Below, piece by piece: positions 43,345 through 45,911 of a stretch of 45,911 nt of DNA. The position numbers and the translations under genes were made by a program. Positions within the stretch are counted from its first letter, which is position 1. Each line of letters begins with the position of its first letter. Origin of the DNA: Verrucomicrobia subdivision 6 bacterium. Lineage in GTDB: Bacteria > Verrucomicrobiota > Verrucomicrobiia > Methylacidiphilales > Verrucolacustridaceae. The stretch spans positions 1 to 45,911 of the forward strand of contig CANEUY010000003.1 of NCBI GenBank assembly GCA_947442065.1, read 5' to 3'. Below the pieces are notes generated by a model. It was given only the letters and a program-made list of their open reading frames with translations, was not told where the DNA came from and did no database searches.

Positions 43345-43587
43345 TTACTGATTCTGTTTTTCCTTGGCGATCTCTTTTTCCCGATTGGCCCGCCATGCCG
43401 ACCGATGTTTGACAATCCAATCCAAAAGACCCTTTTCAAATCCCACGTCGTGGCCCGCCTCTTCGCTTAAGTGCCACTTGTGTTTCAAGATCTCCTCACG
43501 CTCCAACAAAAATTCACGATACAGAGCCGAATTGCGAAAGAGCGCATTCGGGTCGGTCACGGGCTTGGAAGAACCATTCCCATCCAT
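43345..43587 (-). CDS. Small conserved-looking hypothetical protein
   Basis: MDGNGSSKPVTDPNALFRNSALYREFLLEREEILKHKWHLSEEAGHDVGFEKGLLDWIVKHRSAWRANREKEIAKEKQNQ. Confidence 0.7.
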   Translation of the reverse strand: MDGNGSSKPVTDPNALFRNSALYREFLLEREEILKHKWHLSEEAGHDVGFEKGLLDWIVKHRSAWRANREKEIAKEKQNQ

Positions 43588-43662
43588 ATTTGTAATTTGA
43601 CGCTTTTGTAACAATCCGCAAGGGGGAATCTTTTCTGAAAGCCAAACGGAAACTGCTTACTT

Positions 43663-44739
43663 TTAGATATTTGGAAATAGTATTTTTAACACGGATTGAC
43701 CGAATTGGAAAAAAACCTTCGAAGACGATGCTTTCGGATTAACCAAAAGCACCGGTTTTCCCTCGTCTCCACATTTTCTCGCCTCAGGATCCAACGGGAT
43801 CTCCCCCAAAAGAGGGACCTTCTGGCGCTCAGCTTCCCTCTTCCCACCACCGGATCCAAAAATCTCGTGTTTTTCTGTTGTCCCCGGCACGAGAAAATAA
43901 CTCATGTTCTCCACCAATCCGAGAATCGTGACATTCACCTTTCGGAACATCGCAATCGCCTTCCTTGCATCCACCAACGCCACCTCCTGGGGAGTCGTTA
44001 CAATCACGGCACCGTCCAACGCGACTGTCTGGACAATCGTCAACTGGATATCCCCGGTTCCGGGCGGCAGATCCAACACCAGAACATCCAAATCTCCCCA
44101 TACGACTTGTCTTAAAAACTGCTGCGTAAATCGGGTCACCATAGGTCCCCGCAGGGCTGCCGGACTGTCATCCCCCAGCAACATCCCCATGCTCATCAAC
44201 TTCACTCCGTGACATTCGGCCGGAACGATCCGCTCTGTCCCCTCCTCCACCCTCACCCCCTCGCGACACCCCAACATCAGTGCCTGACTTGGTCCGTACA
44301 AGTCGCAATCACACAGCCCGACCTTCAGCCCGCTTTGGGCCAGCCCCACCGCCAAATTGGCTGCGACTGTCGACTTGCCCACCCCCCCCTTCCCACTGGC
44401 GACAGCCACGATCTTTTTCACACCCTCGATCCCCTGAGGCCCGGTGGTAGCGGTCGCTTGCGGTGGCGTCACTTCTGTCTCGATAGTCACGCTCTTCACG
44501 GGGGCATAATTTTTCAACGCATCCCGGATCTCCTTGCCCAGCTTTTCAGGAATCGCCGGGTCGGGGGTGGTGAGCTTCAGCTTCAATTTTAAATCCGTCC
44601 CTTCCATGTCCATGTCCTGGACCAAACCAAATGAAACAATATCCCGACTAAATCCCGGATACTTCACCCCGCGAAGACGCTGAACTACCTCCTCGCGCCA
44701 ATCCTGCTTCACCTCACTCATCTGCGCATCATGACACAA
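43663..44739 (-). CDS. Mrp/NBP35 (ApbC)-family P-loop ATPase, Fe-S carrier type
   Basis: N-terminal MIP18/DUF59-like region; deviant Walker A VASGKGGVGKSTVAANLAVGLA; DLPPGTGDIQLTI; ENMSYF. Confidence 0.93.
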   Translation of the reverse strand: MCHDAQMSEVKQDWREEVVQRLRGVKYPGFSRDIVSFGLVQDMDMEGTDLKLKLKLTTPDPAIPEKLGKEIRDALKNYAPVKSVTIETEVTPPQATATTGPQGIEGVKKIVAVASGKGGVGKSTVAANLAVGLAQSGLKVGLCDCDLYGPSQALMLGCREGVRVEEGTERIVPAECHGVKLMSMGMLLGDDSPAALRGPMVTRFTQQFLRQVVWGDLDVLVLDLPPGTGDIQLTIVQTVALDGAVIVTTPQEVALVDARKAIAMFRKVNVTILGLVENMSYFLVPGTTEKHEIFGSGGGKREAERQKVPLLGEIPLDPEARKCGDEGKPVLLVNPKASSSKVFFQFGQSVLKILFPNI

Positions 44740-44786: not shown

Positions 44787-45911
44787 CTAAACTGGCAGTA
44801 CTGCGGTCAACCTCTTGACCCCTTCCAACACCCGTTCAGCTGCGTCCTCCATTTTTCCGTTAGGAGTGCCAAAACCAAGGGTGAAAAGAATCAAAGCTCT
44901 CGCCTCCTGAGGCGTCGCACCGATGGCCTTCATGGCAGGCGGAATCCTCATCTCCCGGGTCACGCACCCGCTCCCCCCTCTCACCGCCAAACCCATACGG
45001 TCCAGTACCAAAGCCAAGCTCTCCGCCTCCAATCCAGCAAAACTAAAAGCCAGCTGAGCCGGACTCCTTTCAGCACCCAACTTCGAACCATGCAGTTTTG
45101 CCATGGGGATTTTTCTTCCGATCCCATCGGCCAGGGCTTGTTGCGATTCCGCGACATCCCGTCTGAAATGCTTCCCGCTCTTTGACCACTCGTCAGCCGC
45201 CACTCCGAATCCCACAATCGCAGGAAGATTCTCCGTTCCAGCCCTCCGGTCCCCCTCCTGCCTTCCCCCTTCCAGCCAAGGGGCACAAGCCGTGCCCGAC
45301 CGGATCCACAAAGCTCCCGAGCCCTTCGGACCTCCCAGTCGATGGCCAGCCATGGCAACCAGATCCGCCCCACTCTCCTCCACCGAAAAGGGAACCCAGC
45401 CCGCTCCATGAGTCGCATCAACGAATAGTTTTGCCCCCACTTTTTCAGCAAACTTCCTTGCCTCAGAGATTTTTTGCATCGTCCCAAGGTCGTGATGGGC
45501 CAGATGAACGCAAACCAACCCCTTTCCACTTCCAGCCTTCACCTCTCCCCACCTCAATCGGCCCTCCGTATCCACCGGCACTCTGACCAAGGTAAATCCC
45601 TTCTTTCCCAATGCTCGTACTGCACTCTCCACAGCAGGATGCTCCATCTCACTAAGATAGGTTGTCCCATTTTGCACCGCTTCTCCCCATCCGCGTACCG
45701 CCGATTGAATCGCTTCGGTGCCCCCCGATAAAAAGACCACGCCCTCCGTATCCCTCGCCCCAAGAAAAGTGGCTAACCGTTGCCGCGCCTTTTCCAACTC
45801 CTCCCGCGCCTCCCTGCCTTCCCGATGCCCGCCACCGGGGGAAGCCTGAGTTTCGACTAGAAACCTCAAAATTTCCTTTTGCACGGACGGCAAAAGGATT
45901 CCGCCCGAGGC
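44787..45911 (-). CDS. Cysteine-desulfurase-like (NifS/IscS fold) protein with altered active site; N-terminus beyond window
   Basis: FLSGGTEAIQSAVRG, MEHPAVESAVRALGKKGF, FVDATHGAGWVPF, AGHRLGGPKGSGALWIR, RAGTENLPAIVGFG; frame stays open to the window end (GILLPSVQKEILRFL). Confidence 0.85.
   Translation of the reverse strand, partial: ASGGILLPSVQKEILRFLVETQASPGGGHREGREAREELEKARQRLATFLGARDTEGVVFLSGGTEAIQSAVRGWGEAVQNGTTYLSEMEHPAVESAVRALGKKGFTLVRVPVDTEGRLRWGEVKAGSGKGLVCVHLAHHDLGTMQKISEARKFAEKVGAKLFVDATHGAGWVPFSVEESGADLVAMAGHRLGGPKGSGALWIRSGTACAPWLEGGRQEGDRRAGTENLPAIVGFGVAADEWSKSGKHFRRDVAESQQALADGIGRKIPMAKLHGSKLGAERSPAQLAFSFAGLEAESLALVLDRMGLAVRGGSGCVTREMRIPPAMKAIGATPQEARALILFTLGFGTPNGKMEDAAERVLEGVKRLTAVLPV

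Follow-up and report, generated by a model that had tools for sequence, protein, structure and literature searches.

Our analysis of a 45,911-nucleotide stretch of a Verrucomicrobia subdivision 6 genome (contig CANEUY010000003.1; hereafter the window) reveals that its last open reading frame (ORF) codes for a homologue of the cysteine desulfurases IscS and NifS in which the lysine that binds pyridoxal 5'-phosphate (PLP) is replaced by arginine. By analogy with characterized mutants of Escherichia coli IscS, this protein, called here pseudo-IscS, is very probably a pseudo-desulfurase, an IscS homologue that no longer carries out the cysteine desulfurase reaction. The gene has been maintained and protected throughout the genus to which the window belongs and in most of the families sampled from its order. 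The ORF and its diagnostic residues are the following:

44787..45911, minus strand: pseudo-IscS, the lysine-less NifS/IscS homologue, 374 residues within the window
45339..45341, minus strand: R191, codon CGA (tcg on the plus strand), at the position of the PLP lysine (E. coli K206)
44886..44888, minus strand: L342, codon CTT, at the position of the substrate arginine (E. coli R354)
45408..45410, minus strand: H168, at the position of the PLP-contacting glutamine (E. coli Q183)
45495..45497, minus strand: H139, at an asparagine position (E. coli N155; NNE becomes HHD)
44964..44966, minus strand: C316, the conserved loop cysteine (E. coli C328)

Active site and fold of pseudo-IscS

The replacements that a first-pass annotation had read from the DNA alone (lysine to arginine, arginine to leucine, NNE to HHD and DATQ to DATH) are all present, including its remark that the arginine codon is not a one-base change: CGA lies at least two base changes away from any lysine codon. 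The residues that it listed as surviving are also there, namely the loop cysteine (C316), the aspartate of the DA motif (D165) and the histidine of TEH (H91), together with the histidine of the GH motif (H190). Its description of the ORF as intact is right for the frame, which is open, but not for the gene as a whole. Pseudo-IscS is the last ORF of the contig (C3 of bin G000), which stops at 45911, so that the gene lacks its first codons; compared with the closest homologue, on contig C86 of the same bin (L037), which starts LMSVERIYLDHASGG... about 11 residues upstream of the window ORF start, some 11 N-terminal residues are missing. That homologue (G000:C86, 131-1369 and 2-79) is a second pseudo-IscS, 89% identical. 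We considered it as a true paralogue within one genome and discarded this idea, given that the same order of mrp, pseudo-IscS, mutL and parB is found there; more probably, C86 stems from a related strain or species placed in the same bin and represents this same locus, with an overlap at the end of the window contig.

A comparison of 36 lysine-bearing with 37 lysine-less sequences, numbered according to E. coli IscS, clearly separates what has been lost from what has been kept. K206, Q183, R354, N155, H104, D180, H205, T243' and C328 are each present in all 36 lysine-bearing sequences, whereas the lysine-less ones have K206 in none and Q183 and R354 in one of 37 each; by contrast, C328 and D180 are retained in all 37. 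The window genus retains T76, H104, D180, H205 and T243' (9/9). In E. coli IscS, the mutations K206A, Q183E and H104Q each abolish desulfurase activity (PMC9978102), and it is the replacement of two independently essential residues, K206 and Q183, that leads us to infer the loss of this chemistry. Against this, the R354K mutant is fully active (PMC9978102), so the loss of the arginine alone is not decisive.

A different lysine in the PLP position would have changed this picture, and we looked for one by alignment to solved cysteine desulfurases. The motif aGHRLGGPKG pairs with their aHKMYGPKG without gaps in the HMMER alignment, which leaves no other lysine at that position. The nearby K196 (of GPKG) was discarded as a replacement since it is glutamine in one member of the genus (L014), and K272, the sole genus-invariant lysine, varies in the wider family, across whose alignment no lysine is invariant. 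NifS is the nearest NCBIfam family but the protein falls below every desulfurase cut-off, its best score (TIGR03402, 227.7 bits) being less than half the curated threshold of 530.75.

The fold, which the earlier annotation had also supposed to be kept, appears to have been retained. The sequence contains the fold type I aminotransferase class V domain (PF00266, E = 1.2e-47), and a single-chain AlphaFold model computed from 15 input sequences has a mean predicted local distance difference test score (pLDDT) of 87.6 and a predicted template modelling score of 0.89, with residues 214-226 as the main poorly predicted stretch. It matches Nfs1/IscS structures of the PDB with template modelling scores of 0.84-0.90 (0.87-0.90 for the best matches when normalised by the query), the top ones being core ISC complexes that contain human NFS1, and Archaeoglobus fulgidus IscS, which ranks second and third; the model thus supports an IscS/NifS fold. 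In the PDB, the series of entries 9wep to 9wfy comprises solved variants of a "cysteine desulfurase", of which 9wfy has leucine at the PLP-lysine position and valine at that of the substrate arginine, an apparently engineered double loss that resembles the natural proteins.

Could such a protein have kept a cofactor and acquired another activity? ColD-type dehydratases carry a histidine in place of the lysine, and a PLP- or pyridoxamine phosphate-dependent enzyme without a Schiff-base lysine, with R191 or H168 as new catalytic residue, would account for several observations. The cofactor-pocket residues T76, H104, D180, H205 and T243' are all kept in the genus, so that a phosphate cofactor may still bind; E. 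coli IscS K206A itself still binds some PLP (PMC9978102). Moreover, all genus members share R191 and have histidine or phenylalanine at position 168, a pattern that resembles constraint more than drift. Nevertheless, the substitute for lysine differs by lineage (R, Q, D, P, T, G or H), only the cysteine and the aspartate being constant, and no metabolic gene is consistently found nearby across families, the shared neighbours being iron-sulfur (Fe-S) genes. We consider such an enzyme unlikely.

Conservation and descent in the Verrucomicrobiota

Of 60 related genomes, 59 contain homologues. All 17 genus sequences that span the PLP-lysine site have HR, and leucine replaces arginine in all 17 that span the substrate-arginine site. 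Other families of the order have HRF or HRL, with isoleucine, leucine or methionine at the arginine position, and none of the orthologues checked has the canonical HK. The exceptions at the lysine position are a histidine in L026 (family f9) and a glycine in two proteins of family f8 (L169, 7590-8792; L170, 7633-8835), in which the motif is further eroded to HFRGCGGPVG, with glutamine at the arginine position and the cysteine retained; a divergent f2 protein (L160) retains the substrate arginine. Two named Verrucomicrobiota contigs, L051 (SPQRFYGPKG) and L052 (SPHRFYGPKG), share the trait. The best named matches belong to the Verrucomicrobiota, and the order is probably Methylacidiphilales. 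We rejected the presence of the trait throughout the phylum because, among the 30 loci that matched best in the phylum, all have the canonical HK except two from the same order.

The verrucomicrobial lysine-less proteins form one side of a branch with a support of 100/100 in a tree built after dropping the four trait columns, and the same clade was recovered again in a second tree. Reading frames are open and the ratio of nonsynonymous to synonymous substitution rates (dN/dS) is 0.09-0.21 which, together with the residues shared across the genus and the order, indicates an old, selected trait and not decay. The position of the gene at the end of a contig from a metagenome-assembled genome (MAG), with a variant contig (C86) in the same bin, might have pointed to local decay or to a sequencing or assembly error; the orthologues and the dN/dS values rule this out, and we give it a negligible probability.

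The second, canonical desulfurase that the first-pass annotation suggested looking for does exist: most genus genomes carry a lysine-bearing paralogue of the SGHKIYGPKG type, located on contig C44 in the bin of the window. As IscS forms dimers whose active site is composite, the coexistence of both paralogues could in principle indicate that pseudo-IscS is a regulatory or stabilizing subunit, paired in a heterodimer with the cell's own canonical IscS. However, the two share only about 30% identity and occupy distant places on the tree, and their genes lie on different contigs, making this very unlikely.

Neighbouring genes, known precedents and proposed role

Two conserved genes lie downstream of pseudo-IscS in the window:

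43663..44739, minus strand: Mrp/ApbC P-loop Fe-S carrier, directly downstream of pseudo-IscS, Walker A intact, CXXC lost
43345..43614, minus strand: small conserved ORF after mrp, weak DUF4032 match

The gene order in the genus is parB, mutL, pseudo-IscS, mrp/apbC, the small ORF, pyrR, pyrB, pyrC and carA, the parB and pyr names having been assigned by reading the sequences. In the genus, and also in some genomes of f9, the DUF4032-like ORF comes after mrp; mrp in turn follows pseudo-IscS in the genus, in families f2, f5 and f9, and in L051. In the sister family f9, comparison of coordinates places iscU directly upstream of the pseudo-IscS gene in all 11 genomes (order iscU, pseudo-iscS, mrp), and the f9 IscU proteins retain their three cluster cysteines. 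The window genus has no such partner: the NifU_N domain was found in none of its 21 genomes but in 32 other genomes of the same set, and we consequently rejected IscU as a present-day partner there. SufB/D occurs in 15 of the 21. The loss of IscU goes together with that of its docking site, a correlation over few lineages: f9 and L051 have a C-terminal extension resembling the IscU-binding tail of E. coli IscS (SPMWKEF...), which is absent or truncated in f1, f2, f5 and f7. In E. coli IscS, deletion of residues 376-404 abolishes IscU binding (PMC2854127).

A precedent is known for an IscS of this kind. That of A. fulgidus has aspartate in place of the lysine, shows no desulfurase activity and supplies the [2Fe-2S] cluster on IscU with a cysteine ligand (PMC7585200); its structures are PDB 4eb5, 4eb7 and 4hvk, and 4r5f is titled as the D199K mutant. 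The window protein likewise has the IscS fold, a replaced PLP lysine and the loop cysteine. It differs in having arginine, aspartate being seen only in our archaeal set, in the absence of IscU from its genus, and in its sequence, which is only about 28-30% identical; archaeal relatives of the aspartate and threonine types were placed on a different branch. The arginine type without IscU is thus a new variation on this known precedent. Similarly, Methanosarcina acetivorans has an IscS1 without the catalytic lysine alongside an active IscS2 (PMC7585200), a coexistence comparable to that in the window genus, although the archaeal loci related to IscS1 include TusA, DsrE2 and IscU, none of which adjoins the window-genus gene. 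With canonical E. coli IscS and human NFS1, the protein shares the Pfam Aminotran_5 domain, the fold, the cysteine loop and the PLP residues of the phosphate side; unlike them, it has K206, Q183, N155 and R354 all replaced. Finally, the MIS system is a pair of IscS and IscU homologues, of which MisS is classed among the cysteine desulfurases (PMC12442378). The adjacent iscU and lysine-less iscS genes of f9 and of relatives in Nitrospirota and Chloroflexota recall these minimal MisS/MisU pairs, whereas the window genus has no MisU/IscU.

By analogy with A. fulgidus IscS, pseudo-IscS most likely works as a non-enzymatic, cysteine-bearing platform. It would descend from an IscS that partnered with IscU, and would have lost the catalytic lysine, glutamine and arginine while retaining, to judge from its sequence and predicted model, its fold, the part of the cofactor pocket on the phosphate side, and the cysteine of the mobile loop. 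Without cysteine desulfurase turnover, as the E. coli mutants would imply, it may offer this cysteine to a partner, where it would either bind a cluster or take up sulfane sulfur produced elsewhere. In f9 the partner would presumably be IscU, the product of the adjacent upstream gene; for the window genus, after the putative loss of IscU and of the tail that binds it, Mrp/ApbC is the conserved candidate. That pseudo-IscS is, in this complete form, a dedicated pseudoenzyme of Fe-S cluster or sulfur handling, presenting its loop cysteine to IscU in f9 and to Mrp/ApbC in the window genus, seems to us about equally likely to be right or wrong. Of the pseudoenzyme or scaffold that the first-pass annotation had put forward, the loss of desulfurase function is well founded; for the scaffold part, we rely on the neighbouring genes and on the comparison with A. 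fulgidus IscS.

What pseudo-IscS might do with Mrp in particular is hypothetical, and several points weigh against such a role. Three genus members have a 483-residue gene between pseudo-IscS and mrp, mrp is located elsewhere in f7 and f8, and gene adjacency alone is no proof of an interaction. In addition, the Mrp/ApbC proteins studied so far bind the cluster through CXXC cysteines (PMC6345978, PMC8593673); order-wide one of these cysteines is left, and in the genus and L051 none (0/10 versus 27/31), which makes the standard Mrp hand-off doubtful. Nearly all of these Mrp proteins conserve a CDC motif. In Salmonella, an apbC defect is bypassed when IscU is overexpressed (PMC8593673), a precedent for functional overlap between Mrp and IscU. 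More speculatively, the dead IscS might lend its cysteine to an Mrp devoid of CXXC.

Lysine-less IscS proteins in other lineages and their possible sulfur source

The same triple loss is found in homologues from MAGs of Nitrospirota, Chloroflexota, Thermodesulfobacteriota and Bacillota, mostly with glutamine at the lysine position, and in archaeal ones with aspartate or threonine. Outside the Verrucomicrobiota they usually adjoin iscU. A different, single-residue loss characterizes the IscS of Rokubacteria (L088, 3848-5146; L108, 3917-5206), which has leucine at the PLP-lysine position (TAHLIYGPKG), keeps Gln183 and Arg354, and adjoins iscU and an Rrf2 regulator. A single origin of the lysine-less forms is neither shown nor rejected by the sequences. 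The arginine and glutamine groups as one clade are not rejected (approximately unbiased test, p = 0.34), and in the second tree, which left out A. fulgidus IscS itself, the archaeal aspartate and threonine types sit among archaeal lysine-bearing sequences with weak support.

Many of these genes are found close to sulfur-carrier genes. In our named set, TusA is encoded within 2.5 kb of 8 of 15 lysine-less homologues as against none of 67 lysine-bearing ones (Fisher p = 2e-7, uncorrected for kinship), and DsrE2 nearby in 4 of 15 as against none of 67. A separate archaeal sample, picked by similarity to one aspartate-type protein, shows iscU in the fetched flanks of 28 of 28 aspartate-type genes and tusA in those of 26 of 28, whereas archaeal lysine-bearing genes have iscU without tusA, except for a single one located beside an aspartate-type gene in the same locus. 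These archaeal aspartate-type genes (SSNDIYGPRG; L243, L246, L250-L278) adjoin IscU, TusA and often DsrE2, in the operon order TusA-DsrE-IscS-IscU in L246 and L243, and are candidates for a cysteine-independent sulfur supply. Bacterial glutamine-, arginine- or proline-type genes lie by TusA and/or DsrE2 in L057, L058, L061, L063, L068, L071, L083, L089 and L091, several of these loci also carrying IscU and an Rrf2/IscR-type regulator. A literature search, with most subscription journals outside it, retrieved no paper tying TusA or DsrE2 to a lysine-less IscS. This linkage suggests a cysteine-independent sulfur route to IscU. As only two phylogenetically independent pairs were counted on starred branches, it is a lead, strongly repeated inside two or three lineages.

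These neighbours bear on another possible function for pseudo-IscS, a sulfur relay whose loop cysteine would take a persulfide from another sulfurtransferase and pass it on. The donor would be TusA/DsrE2 in other lineages, as their operons suggest, and the canonical NifS or a rhodanese in the window genus, which does own a canonical IscS. But TusA is found in none of the 21 genus genomes, so we rejected it as a present-day partner there, and the independent pairs are too few for a test of the link; for pseudo-IscS, a relay seems improbable. Returning to the non-enzymatic platform, we advance only tentatively, and think rather less likely than the role proposed above, a broader view in which lysine-less IscS proteins would be a recurrent functional class of bacteria and archaea, receiving sulfur from a TusA (often DsrE2) relay and not from cysteine, and supplying IscU with this sulfur or with a cysteine ligand. 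On the verrucomicrobial branch, IscU would then have been dropped and the dead IscS kept as cysteine-donating partner of an Mrp without cluster cysteines.

IscS is usually regarded as the indispensable source of sulfur for Fe-S clusters, and the IscS of A. fulgidus, unable to release sulfur, had looked an oddity. The consistent co-loss of residues, the invariant cysteine and the recurring neighbours described here portray dead IscS as a widespread, selected class, so that the role of a non-enzymatic IscS becomes a testable question. Similarity-based annotation would label such genes as cysteine desulfurases, in every case probably wrongly. The source of sulfur in sulfide-rich anaerobes has been a missing piece, for which the linkage to TusA and DsrE2 provides a concrete candidate.
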